Shown here: in pieces, positions 32,466-34,480 of the stretch | Position numbering within the stretch: the first letter of the stretch is position 1 | How the letters are laid out: every line of letters begins with the position of its first letter | Assembly (NCBI RefSeq): GCF_034555375.1 | Contig: NZ_CP140706.1 | Coordinates: forward strand, 4,021,001-4,085,000 | Length of the DNA stretch: 64,000 nt | Direction of reading: 5' to 3' | Source of the DNA: Pseudomonas sp. B33.4 | GTDB taxonomy: Bacteria; Pseudomonadota; Gammaproteobacteria; Pseudomonadales; Pseudomonadaceae | Program-made: the position numbers and the translations under genes | The notes under the pieces: generated by a model | What the model was told of the DNA's origin: nothing | Databases searched by the model: none | Seen by the model: only the letters and a program-made list of their open reading frames with translations

Positions 32466-32482
32466 AGTGATTTTGAAGGCGC

Positions 32483-32552
32483 CTTCGCGAGCAAGCTCGA
32501 TCCCACAGTTTGGAATGCATTCCCCCTGTGGGAGCGAGCCTGCTCGCGAAGG
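32483..32552. repeat. Compact REP pair, TGTGGGAGCGAGC subtype
   Basis: Arms CTTCGCGAGCAAGCTCGATC and TGTGGGAGCGAGCCTGCTCG with the interior TTTGGAATGCATTCC, almost the same interior as the pair at 28438-28503. Confidence 0.88.
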
Positions 32553-32584
32553 CGCCCAGTCAAACGCAGCATCATTTAGACATC

Positions 32585-32880
32585 AGCCACAAGGCTACAG
32601 CGCCTTGCGCCTTTGCCTACAACTACGCCAGAATCCGCCGGCTTGTGCGGCTTGGGAGCTGCCGGTAACTTGGATCGCGTCACTGAATGTTCAGTGATCG
32701 GGTTTAGTCGCTCGGTGTCATCTCTAGCTAGCAAGCTGTTATTCAGTCTGGCATTTCCATGCCTGCACTCAATGGCGGCTATGCGCAGGGCGCTTTCGAG
32801 CGCGCCGGTTTAGCTAGGGGGCCGGTCGACTAACCTGCGTATAGCTGTCACCCAATGTTTAGTCGCAAACGGTGTCAGCC
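32585..32880 (+). ncRNA. Candidate structured leader/ncRNA upstream of the DUF6124-like gene
   Basis: No ORF is convincing here, but several short hairpins are: AAGGC/GCCTT (32591-32606), CCGC/GCGG (32635-32650), an 8-base-arm palindrome TCACTGAA-TG-TTCAGTGA (32680-32697), GGCAT-TTCC-ATGCC (32750-32763) and GCGCT-TTCG-AGCGC (32790-32803), the last closing a stable UUCG tetraloop. A direct repeat GTTTAGTCGC-N2/4-GGTGTCA occurs at 32702-32720 and 32857-32877, the second ending about 20 bases before the ATG. I infer a folded transcript or mobile non-coding element; no known RNA family is assigned. Confidence 0.45.
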
Positions 32881-32900
32881 TCATTGAGGTTTCCTAGCAT

Positions 32901-33281
32901 ATGTTCAAAATAACGCCGAATCCGCCCGAAACAGATGCGGAAATCGATCAAAATCCGACATCCCCCTATTCCACACCGGGCTCCAGAAAACTCCACGAAG
33001 CCGCCGAACGCGCCCTCGACCACTACCTGAAACCCACACCGCCTTCACCACCGCGCAGACCCAGCACCATGTTCCTCGTCGACCCGAACACCGGCGCCGA
33101 AGACCTCATGGCCCACGCCTGCGAATCCATGGCTTCGGCCAGCATCATGCTCAGCGACTTCGCCGCCCTGCTCGACTCGCCCTACCGCAACACCGTGCTC
33201 GGCATCCAGCAAGTGGTCATGCTCGGCGAACTCGCGGTCAACCGCGCCCTCGACAAAATCGAACCCGCCCTGAGGCAATAA
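32901..33281 (+). CDS. DUF6124-like small protein
   Basis: A 126-residue protein I assign, from memory of the family, to the Pseudomonas-restricted DUF6124/DUF3077-like group. Residues 1-58 are Pro/Thr/Ser-rich and polar (PNPPETDAEIDQNPTSPYSTPGSRKLHEAAERALDHYL). Residues 60-126 form a helical domain (FLVDPNTGAEDLMAHACESMASASIMLSDFAALLDSPYRNTVLGIQQVVMLGELAVNRALDKIEP). No signal peptide, membrane helix or catalytic motif is seen. GAGG lies about 15 bases upstream. It is coupled to the HEAT-like gene two bases downstream. Function unknown. Confidence 0.7.
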   Translation: MFKITPNPPETDAEIDQNPTSPYSTPGSRKLHEAAERALDHYLKPTPPSPPRRPSTMFLVDPNTGAEDLMAHACESMASASIMLSDFAALLDSPYRNTVLGIQQVVMLGELAVNRALDKIEPALRQ

Positions 33282-33283
33282 AC

Positions 33284-33553
33284 ATGTCCAACAAAACCGA
33301 TGCACAAGTCGTCGCGGCACTGGTGGCCATGGGCTTCAACGAACGCGACGGACGCTGGGCACAGAACGCCTGCCTGGTGCTCTTCGAAAGCGAACGCGAA
33401 TCCATCGTCGCCTCCGCCGTCACCGTCCTTCCCCAACTCGATGAACTGGAAATCGACACCGTGCTGCCCGCACTGCGCCGCGTGACCCGCCGGTTCCCCT
33501 CACTGCAAAGGACCGTGGCCGACACACTGGCCGAGATGGCGCATGCAGCCTGA
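33284..33553 (+). CDS. Small HEAT-like helical protein, copy 1
   Basis: An 89-residue, all-helical protein starting two bases after the DUF6124-like gene. Its sequence DAQVVAALVAMGFNERDGRWAQNACLVLF, then SIVASAVTVLPQLDELEIDTVLPALRRV and PSLQRTVADTLAEM, aligns over nearly its full length with the protein at 34145-34480. The pattern of paired helices resembles two or three HEAT repeats, as in many small immunity proteins. This copy is GC-rich like the host genome, whereas the other copy is not. No function can be read directly. Confidence 0.7.
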   Translation: MSNKTDAQVVAALVAMGFNERDGRWAQNACLVLFESERESIVASAVTVLPQLDELEIDTVLPALRRVTRRFPSLQRTVADTLAEMAHAA

Positions 33554-33571
33554 TTGACCGCGGGATCGTTC

Positions 33572-33664
33572 TTCGCGAGCAGGCTCGCTCCCACAGTTGT
33601 TCGCGGTTACTCGCGGCATTCGAGTACACCGCCGTCCCAATGTGGGAGCGAGCCTGCTCGCGAA
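33572..33664. repeat. REP pair, TGTGGGAGCGAGC subtype
   Basis: Arms TTCGCGAGCAGGCTCGCTCC and TGTGGGAGCGAGCCTGCTCG are inverted around a 45-base interior that has its own small inverted repeat (TTCGCGG...). It separates HEAT-like copy 1 from the lower-GC ORFs. Confidence 0.88.
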
Positions 33665-33719
33665 AGCGTTCTTTCTGCTGGTGAATATCTAAAAGCCAAA
33701 TACCAGGAAGGCTTAAACC

Positions 33720-34136
33720 ATGAAGGAACATCCCTCCCGATTCCAAAGTTTCACTTGTGTCTGGGATGCACTGGAAGACACACCGCAGGACGCCGCCAAT
33801 ATGCGCCTGCTGGCCAAGTTGAGGCGCACGCTTTCACGAGAGAACTCCCCCGTCAGACCAGCCACTCCAATGGATGAGGCAGACAGGAAGCTACAGATGT
33901 TTTTATGGATTAGCGGTTTCTTAAAAGGTGACGACGAAGACGACACCTTAAAATACGAACTTACAGTTGGGCCGAAATTTGAACCGGCAGTTTTGGCTGC
34001 AATGGGTTGGAAGAGCCTTGATGAAAGTCCCGACGGCGAATGGCTGCTGACACTCGATCAAGCTCAAAAAATCGGTATGGCGGTTAACGAACAACTGCCA
34101 TCGGAATTCGATCTTTTTATCGGCATCAGGGGTTAA
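33720..34136 (+). CDS. Small protein with XRE-antitoxin-like start and unknown C-terminal domain
   Basis: A 138-residue ORF with a good GGAAGG ribosome site. Residues 7-33 (RFQSFTCVWDALEDTPQDAANMRLLAK) resemble the N-terminus of HTH_37/HigA2-type XRE antitoxins, but the helix-turn-helix that should follow is missing. After a Pro/Arg linker, residues 50-138 form another domain (MDEADRKLQMFLWISGFLKGDDEDDTL, KYELTVGPKFEPAVLAAMGW, LTLDQAQKIGMAVNEQLPSEFDLFIGIRG), acidic and of a size common in immunity proteins. Base composition is clearly more AT-rich than the neighbours. It may be a recombined remnant or a true fusion. Confidence 0.6.
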   Translation: MKEHPSRFQSFTCVWDALEDTPQDAANMRLLAKLRRTLSRENSPVRPATPMDEADRKLQMFLWISGFLKGDDEDDTLKYELTVGPKFEPAVLAAMGWKSLDESPDGEWLLTLDQAQKIGMAVNEQLPSEFDLFIGIRG

Positions 34137-34144
34137 CTTCGGCA

Positions 34145-34480
34145 ATGGGCCTCATCTATCAAGATCCATCCATAAGCCATGACGAGGCCATAAGACTCCT
34201 TGCCAGTGATACGGATGCAAACGTGATCGCCGCACTCGTATCCATTGGCCTGAATGAAACCGATAGAAACTGGGCTCAGGACATCTGCCTGAAACACCTC
34301 ACCAGCAAAGCCGAAGCAATTGTGGCCGCTGCGGCTACTGCACTCGGGCACATCGCTCGCCGACATGGCGAGCTGGATACTGAAACAGTTTTTGCGGCAC
34401 TCGAATCAGCCAAGCAAACGCACCCTTCACTGCAAGGGATCATCGAAGACACGCTTGACGATATAGACGTATTCACCTGA
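34145..34480 (+). CDS. Small HEAT-like helical protein, copy 2
   Basis: A 111-residue paralogue of the protein at 33284-33553, with a 20-residue N-terminal extension (YQDPSISHDEAIRLLASDT). The shared core is DANVIAALVSIGLNETDRNWAQDICLKHLTSKAEAIVAAAATALGHIARRHGELDTETVFAALESAKQTHPSLQGIIEDTLDDI. It starts eight bases after the XRE-like chimera and shares its lower GC, so these two genes probably arrived together. HEAT-like helix pairs suggest protein binding, for example immunity to a polymorphic toxin; no toxin gene is present in the window. Confidence 0.65.
   Translation: MGLIYQDPSISHDEAIRLLASDTDANVIAALVSIGLNETDRNWAQDICLKHLTSKAEAIVAAAATALGHIARRHGELDTETVFAALESAKQTHPSLQGIIEDTLDDIDVFT

Follow-up and report, generated by a model that had tools for sequence, protein, structure and literature searches.

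A C4-family antisense RNA flanked by its own target boxes precedes DUF6124 genes in Pseudomonas and is probably a switch for them

The locus and its leader

The window analysed here is a stretch of 64,000 nucleotides (64 kb) of the Pseudomonas sp. B33.4 chromosome, and the element in question is the leader of a small gene of the DUF6124 family. The gene encodes 126 amino acids (aa; 32901..33281, + strand) and matches PF19619 with 70.9 bits against a cut-off of 27 (E = 8.2e-20), which agrees with the family proposed by an earlier reading of the letters alone (the sequence-only reading). The leader under study (32585-32900) carries a C4 antisense RNA (RF01695; 32768..32855, + strand, found by a covariance-model match), listed below by its chromosome position as copy 4053768. 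Boxes complementary to this RNA lie on both sides of it. The leader is probably a C4-type antisense RNA switch addressed to its own gene, DUF6124, the presumed controlled gene.

The elements of the leader all lie on the + strand. A putative promoter (TTGTGC, a 17-base spacer and TAACTT; 32643..32671), read from the letters and tentative, lies directly 5' of an 8-pair hairpin (GTCACTGA-ATGT-TCAGTGAT, 32679..32698), which folding marks as an upstream target element of the c4-a1b1 type. The b1 box (GTTTAGTCGC, 32702..32711) follows; it is complementary to C4 box b with one extra base and is supported by cognate pairing and by the leader fold. The a1 box (CTCTAGCTA, 32722..32730) is complementary to the C4 loop through nine pairs, one of them G-U (score 20.5), and also appears in the leader fold. 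The palindrome CTAGCTAG (32724-32731) forms part of a palindromic a1 site at about 32722-32731. A hairpin read as GGCAT-TTCC-ATGCC (32750..32763) stands directly 5' of C4.

Within C4, the hairpin GCGCT-TTCG-AGCGC (32790-32803) is helix P2. The address, TTTAGCTAGGGGG, occupies loop a (32809..32821) and pairs with both a1 and a2, and box b (CGACTAA, 32827..32833) shows cognate pairing with b1 and b2. Downstream come the b2 box (GTTTAGTCGC, 32857..32866; cognate pairing), a likely Shine-Dalgarno sequence (GAGG, 32886..32889, read from the letters), which is 11 bases 5' of the ATG at 32901, and the a2 box (TTTCCTAGC, 32890..32898) at the translation start. The a2 box is complementary to loop a with a pairing score of 17.5, or 16.5 when the loop call is shorter. 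Exact copies of GTTTAGTCGC occur at only two places in the window, 32702-32711 and 32857-32866, and each is followed by a GGTGTCA copy (32714-32720 and 32871-32877).

The sequence-only reading had described several short hairpins here, two of them with tetraloops, an 8-base-arm palindrome and a repeated GTTTAGTCGC/GGTGTCA element, and all are present. Its description of the leader as lacking an open reading frame (ORF) stands in substance; among ORFs of at least 60 aa, two mechanical ones on the + strand, 80 and 66 aa long, overlap it.

Family identity, folding and covariation

The match to RF01695 at 32768-32855 reaches 73.2 bits against a cut-off of 45 (E = 2.3e-12). C4 is the sole Rfam family over its cut-off anywhere in the window, and on this ground another known RNA family for the leader was rejected; the isrK model gave no match at cut-off in the window. 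The leader RNA is a member of the Rfam C4 family known from phages P1 and P7, so the suggestion that it belongs to an undescribed system is overstated. Both C4 and c4-a1b1 have an earlier listing, for Proteobacteria and for phages (Weinberg 2010, PMC2864571), and a study of Acinetobacter baumannii counts Pseudomonadales among the hosts of C4 (PMC5320573).

The density of hairpins is not random. The leader (32660-32905) has a folding z of -4.09 and the C4 part one of -4.10, and in both tests none of the 200 shuffles folds as well. Folded alone, C4 is predicted to form a cloverleaf of helices P1, P2 and P3. This structure is supported by covariation, the check that had been proposed for the leader: among 42 copies from the same genome, 16 of 27 pairs show two-sided changes in at least one copy (122 cells), and 96.6% of all cells of the cloverleaf remain paired. 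None of 500 shuffles reaches the observed level, and structures slid along the alignment are 35-47% paired. Both alignment and model comprise 42 of the 43 paralogues, copy 1167377 being left out.

Copy number and linkage to DUF6124

The Pseudomonas sp. B33.4 genome (6.60 Mb, one contig) contains 43 C4 matches, 42 of them over cut-off, and 39 DUF6124 matches on the same chromosome. In 33 of the 43 C4 hits a DUF6124 match starts 13-228 bases 3' of C4 on the same strand. The layout is regular: the start codon, as chosen by script, lies 45-55 bases past C4 in 37/43 cassettes, the best a2 site lies 29-40 bases past it in 41/43, and a c4-a1b1 match (E <=0.0015) lies directly upstream of 41/43 copies, with 20 such matches over cut-off. 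Promoter-like words similar to TTGTGC/TAACTT are present in many cassette leaders, as judged by eye. A hairpin before C4 might be a general cassette feature, a point weakly suggested by the best-stem score of the last 55 bases before C4 (mean 13.5 versus 11.3 in shuffled sequence; above the shuffle mean in 32/43 cassettes).

Seen from the gene, C4 lies upstream of DUF6124 in 33/39 loci of this genome, in 80/80 named loci (the 80 best-matching of 537 relatives, a choice that favours close ones) and in 56/61 viral-contig loci. The idea of a conserved RNA travelling with DUF6124 genes is thus borne out. A mobile non-coding element with no tie to the gene is contradicted by the same linkage and was rejected.

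Across the genus sample, C4 occurs in 110/119 genomes and DUF6124 in 95/119; no genome was scored for more than 33 C4 matches, which makes the high counts in this sample lower bounds. In the class sample C4 occurs in 18/274 genomes, the present genome included. The ORFs behind C4 in 26 class loci include proteins that we take, by eye, to be antirepressor-like and primase-like, some after a small first ORF.

Not every C4 copy of the chromosome precedes DUF6124. Behind copies 1366825 and 325145 (the latter after a short ORF) lies a DUF3077 protein over cut-off, and behind copy 3130807 a protein just under the DUF3077 cut-off. The protein behind copy 5974277 shares 59% identity with that of 1366825, as judged by alignment only. 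Of the remaining copies, four precede ORFs of 94-106 aa that match no Pfam family, one lies ahead of a 52-aa ORF and the last ahead of a truncated remnant. The C4 copy with the highest score in the genome (5361143; loci L010 and L338) is followed by a 52-aa ORF, a 94-aa ORF, a small ORF and a 968-aa protein, the last presumably primase-like in a layout that would resemble P4-like satellites.

Viral sequences carry comparable arrangements. DUF6124 cassettes with at least two C4 matches occur in viral contigs (L226 and L254), and other viral loci also have two; L254 is situated near probable tail genes. Against a phage collection, the window DUF6124 protein or leader matched a single record, Pseudomonas phage DVM-2008 (EU982300; L080), in which C4 and DUF6124 lie at the record end, close to prtR. 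The protein found no match in a plasmid collection. The isrK family of Gifsy-1 was found over cut-off upstream of C4 in 8 of 29 Pseudomonas loci from other genomes (L051, L053, L064, L067, L068, L071, L075 and L078).

Cassette-specific pairing of loop and targets

The pairing between C4 and its boxes is specific to each cassette. Each C4 loop was paired without gaps with the boxes of every cassette, the highest score was taken, and own and other combinations were compared by label permutation. In the B33.4 genome (n = 43), loop a pairs with its own a2 at a mean of 18.8 against 10.7 for non-cognate combinations (z 21.0). The other contacts reach z 15.8 (a:a1), 14.3 (b:b2) and 13.5 (b:b1), and the controls (coding sequence scored with the helix P1 arm or with the loop; the reversed box scored with the loop) z 0.8-1.5. 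A score of at least 16 is reached by 33/43 own pairs, and the loop address is 7-16 bases long.

The same result is obtained beyond this genome. For a:a2, a:a1, b:b2 and b:b1 in turn, z is 15.8, 11.1, 11.2 and 10.6 in other genomes (n = 34, several near-identical; controls 2.4-2.7), 26.7, 18.5, 19.2 and 15.2 in the 80 named loci (controls 1.5 and -0.5), and 17.3, 14.0, 10.8 and 9.6 in 52 viral-contig loci (controls 0.1 and -0.5). The viral set consists of 56 rows less 4 duplicates, with one C4 per locus. The sister genome G019 (n = 42) gives z 21.2, computed for a:a2 only and without a control. These results rest on loop-only scoring; when stem bases are included the signal is weak, and the cognate box is strictly best in 4/43 (a2) and 7/43 (a1) cases.

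A third cassette-specific contact, between a 'c box' (GGTGTCA or GTGGCAGCT type) and the 3' arm of helix P1, was considered and rejected (z 3.3 and 2.8 against controls of 0.8 and 2.4). The c box might still be a shared, non-specific contact with that arm.

Loops in sister genomes and among paralogues

Comparison with G019, which has 42 C4 matches, shows how the addresses change. Thirty-four cassettes could be matched between the B33.4 genome (G000) and G019 by at least one flank. In 12/34 pairs the loops are identical and the remaining C4 is 95-100% identical. In 20/34 pairs the loops are less than 80% identical, yet the first 300 bases of the gene average 89% identity; the last two pairs fall into neither class (loop identity 0.80 and 0.83). 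Among the 20 changed pairs, own pairing exceeds crossed pairing in 18 at a2 and in 19 at a1.

A secure set of eight changed pairs has matching DNA on both sides (1366825, 2089346, 966600, 849317, 505491, 1506861, 4302317 and the window's own 4053768). This set was picked after the result had been seen; the other 12 changed pairs were left out of it because of tandem or rearranged clusters, one-sided flanks or, for A3576592, a loop-boundary artefact. Own pairing exceeds crossed pairing in 8/8 at a2 and 8/8 at a1, the narrowest comparison being 29 versus 28. In these eight securely matched cassettes, flanks and gene were kept while the loop and both targets changed together.

Across all 20 pairs with changed loops, the part of the leader before C4 has a median identity of about 80% and the gene body one of 93%, a pattern resembling replacement of the leader in one block between sister genomes. 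At the window locus, the loop change is local, because the leader upstream of C4 is 95% identical to that of G019.

The window locus can be followed in four relatives (G029, G016, G019 and G011), which carry C4 beside the same FKBP gene as the window and have different loops. The a2/a1 scores are 25.5/20.0 in G029 and 22.0/15 in G016, and weaker, 13.5/16.0, in G019. In G011 (L116, 1337-1565) a C4 over cut-off is kept, the a2 box and the DUF6124 start are lost, and a1 scores 15. G033 and G034 share the locus with its AraC-type gene and FKBP gene; the DNA between these two genes is different there and contains no C4 that reaches cut-off.

Loops also differ between close paralogues. In all 33 paralogue pairs with gene bodies at least 85% identical (10 in G000, 23 in G019) the loops differ; two neighbours in G019, for example, have gene bodies 98% identical and loops 45% alike. 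No loop is shared among 1764 pairs within G000 or within G019, and between the two genomes 4/1770 non-orthologous pairs share one, some of which may be rearranged true counterparts.

Loops of this diversity could form an immunity repertoire, in which a resident C4 would silence same-address cassettes of incoming prophages or satellites in trans. This reading is compatible with the switch proposed here. It would resemble heteroimmunity, which C4 underlies in P1 and P7 (PMC12197685), and the presence of the same cassettes in viral contigs and the absence of shared loops within a genome are consistent with it. However, 63 distinct loops of named loci and 25 of viral contigs have just one in common, and cross-pairing within genomes is not avoided (figures below). 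Immunity is therefore an unlikely role for the repertoire. An equally doubtful, wider version holds that Pseudomonas chromosomes keep many small genes locked by C4, with addresses that would recombine as blocks, independently of the guarded gene. Such a heteroimmunity or sensing system would silence same-address incomers through the resident C4, and foreign RNA of the same address would titrate C4 and free the DUF6124 or DUF3077 protein.

Selection on the cassette genes

The ORFs of the cassettes are under purifying selection. The window DUF6124 gene and its G019 ortholog have a ratio of amino-acid-changing to silent substitution rates (dN/dS) of 0.13, and the pooled ratio over 31 orthologous cassette ORFs, not DUF6124 alone, is also 0.13. 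The set comprises 31 of the 34 ortholog pairs, a pair being excluded if it lacked a usable start or if its amino-acid-changing differences exceeded 35%; high outliers are 0.73 (a pair of unequal length) and 0.57. DUF6124 proteins carry a TPNPP-like motif at the N-terminus and the DUF6124 domain towards the C-terminus. Sequence comparison with solved structures found no relative of the window protein. A single superfamily of DUF6124, DUF3077 and the 'LLID' small proteins was not established (hhalign probabilities 1.5-7.3) despite their similar layout.

Selection, together with covariation, pairing and the linkage in 80/80 named loci, makes it very improbable that the cassette is a functionless decaying phage remnant, or that it is a mobile non-coding element with no relation to the gene. 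What might suggest such an origin is that the best-known C4 RNAs are phage genes, that REP-type inverted repeats surround the cassette and that some copies are broken.

A sharper form of the switch, not exclusive of it, is a module like a type I toxin-antitoxin system, in which DUF6124 would be a growth inhibitor silenced by its own C4 and the cassette would persist by addiction. Its position is that of icd in P1, whose product inhibits cell division (PMC8198154). Cassettes occur in viral contigs as well, and C4 persists beside truncated or damaged genes at 2293883, 1763300 and 1769799 and in G011 at the window locus, where the gene start and a2 are deleted. Orphan C4 copies could equally come from neutral decay, however. 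Type I toxins are usually very short, under about 60 aa, and the DUF6124 product, at 126 aa, exceeds this limit. Addiction of this kind is possible, at well under even chances. The favoured view of DUF6124 is a broader one, based on its position: a small host-modulating protein, possibly growth-inhibiting, like Icd of P1.

Proposed mechanism and known systems

In the proposed switch, a single transcript probably starts near 32675 and contains a1/b1, C4, b2/a2 and the gene in that order. The C4 cloverleaf would probably be excised by RNase P, as in P1 and P7. Its loop a and box b would then pair with a2 and b2 and mask the ribosome-binding site, leaving DUF6124 untranslated. Transcription may then be ended by Rho, as it is in P4-type systems. 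The a1/b1 boxes might act as a second binding site, like seqA of P4 or IsrK of Gifsy-1, leading to early termination or to retention of C4 in the uncut transcript. The DUF6124 protein would thus stay silent until C4 falls or is titrated.

Several phage systems provide the model. In P1, full repression of the icd and ant operon needs the C4 antisense RNA, and Icd inhibits host cell division (PMC8198154). In P1 and P7, C4 binds around the ribosome-binding site (PMC12197685). Cutting of C4 by RNase P to a product of about 77 nt has been described for P1/P7 and suggested for the C4-like RNAs of A. baumannii (PMC5320573). In P4, CI brings transcription to an early end by pairing with the two sites that flank it, seqA and seqC; in structure, SeqA is homologous to IsrK (PMC4825925).

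Because the Pseudomonas cassette shares its order of parts with the P1 and P4 systems, translational repression, perhaps with termination, is the best reading. By this analogy, the C4 RNA most likely blocks translation of the small gene, as it does for icd/ant of P1. The base pairing of C4 with the start site makes control of DUF6124 the natural reading, in line with this part of the sequence-only reading's proposal that the leader controls the genes behind it. The HEAT-like genes further downstream, included in that proposal, lie outside the recurrent cassette.

The likeness to each known system is partial. The immI region of P1/P7 (c4-icd-ant) has the same cloverleaf, loop a, box b and flanking targets, one of them at the start of a small first ORF, and its heteroimmunity arises from differences in the loop (PMC12197685, PMC5320573). 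The Pseudomonas cassettes differ in being chromosomal, numbering about 40 per genome and preceding genes of the DUF6124/DUF3077 type. A P1-type antirepressor gene is also missing behind the window C4, where the ORFs are DUF6124, a pair of HEAT-like paralogues and a pyocin-S6-type immunity gene. With c4-a1b1 (RF03163) the cassette shares the upstream hairpin target, and 20 genome copies exceed the cut-off, unlike the window copy. The CI RNA of P4 likewise lies between two targets of one transcript, and the IsrK-orf45-AnrP arrangement of Gifsy-1 likewise sets a short leader RNA and a small ORF ahead of the next gene (PMC4825925). Both differ in preceding phage replication or antirepressor genes, and an isrK match at cut-off is lacking in the window. 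The Group 1 C4-like small RNAs of A. baumannii resemble the present case in their many chromosomal copies (21 similar RNAs in a single chromosome), their variable loop and, on their side, processing seen by RNA-seq. They belong to another genus, and in the excerpted text their targets are left open and neither a downstream gene family nor paired boxes are given (PMC5320573).

A number of findings weigh against the proposed switch. A scan with the sigma-70 consensus found no promoter for the window leader, and the Rfam c4-a1b1 match at 32666-32718 has 24.6 bits, under its cut-off of 46.7. Six of the 39 DUF6124 matches of the genome have no C4 of their own. The own a2 box is strictly the best partner in only 26/43 rows, and pairing is weak in five copies (2293883, 1765211, 1167377, 2767819 and 3576592), two of which adjoin damaged genes. 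Selection for orthogonality is not shown: cross scores of at least 16 occur in 137/3528 pairs within genomes and in 135/3540 between them, so that within-genome cross-pairing equals the between-genome level and selection against cross-talk is not supported. In the minimum-energy fold of the whole leader, finally, loop a is taken up by a1 and box b by b1, and the cloverleaf is absent. Because of this predicted fold, the cloverleaf would need cutting or co-transcriptional folding.

The last point bears on a cis-acting attenuator, in which loop a and box b would pair with a1/b1 or a2/b2 only inside the same nascent transcript, with no separate RNA acting in trans. Pairing in cis is possible, since cis pairing within one transcript and pairing in trans look alike in sequence and the cassette pairing evidence fits both equally. 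The whole-leader fold speaks somewhat for the attenuator, and confidence in the C4 switch is slightly lower, and in the attenuator slightly higher, because of it. Against it stand the stable, covarying cloverleaf formed by C4 alone, the action of the P1/P7 relatives in trans as antisense RNAs (PMC12197685) and the apparent processing of the A. baumannii C4-like RNAs in RNA-seq (PMC5320573). A purely cis-acting leader is accordingly rather improbable, and the C4 switch, whose RNA would act in trans, is retained as the preferred account.

A literature search found no paper on C4 control of DUF6124 or DUF3077 genes in the sources within its reach (supplements and most subscription journals lie outside it), and the sole mention of DUF3077 found concerns furfural tolerance. 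Possibly undescribed are the abundance of C4 copies, whose addresses differ, and their link to DUF6124/DUF3077. Two abundant, unexplained Pseudomonas families become a testable regulon, and a phage-type immunity RNA is present in about forty copies with differing addresses on one chromosome. With dozens of natural antisense/target pairs per cell, the divergence of RNA specificity could be tested directly, and the cassettes in which loop and targets were replaced together between sister genomes offer a clear study case. If DUF6124 proves inhibitory, these genes would form a large new group of RNA-guarded genes.

Neighbouring genes

Behind the DUF6124 gene lies a second ORF of 89 aa (33284..33553, + strand), 2 bases past it and with no Pfam match, and further downstream another ORF (34145-34480) with HEAT matches under cut-off. 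The sequence-only reading had taken both for HEAT-like paralogues. Their mutual paralogy is confirmed by 43% identity; the HEAT label itself has the sub-cut-off matches of one ORF only. In the C4 loci of this genome, tblastn found HEAT-like ORFs at the window locus alone, with relatives at the orthologous loci of G019, G029 and G016, and they were rejected as part of the general cassette. Defence models run against four ORFs of the window gave a best E of 0.0029, which is not convincing.

The block of C4, DUF6124 and the second ORF is bracketed by inverted repeats, which we take to be of REP type, at 32478-32556 and 33571-33668. Between the two HEAT-like ORFs lies a pyocin-S6-family immunity gene (33720-34136; NF040643, 8.8e-32, residues 61-137). 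The first ~40 residues of its product presumably represent the start of an XRE-type regulator, and window bases 33783-34144 have no match in G019. From its sequence, the ORF at 33720-34136 looks chimeric.

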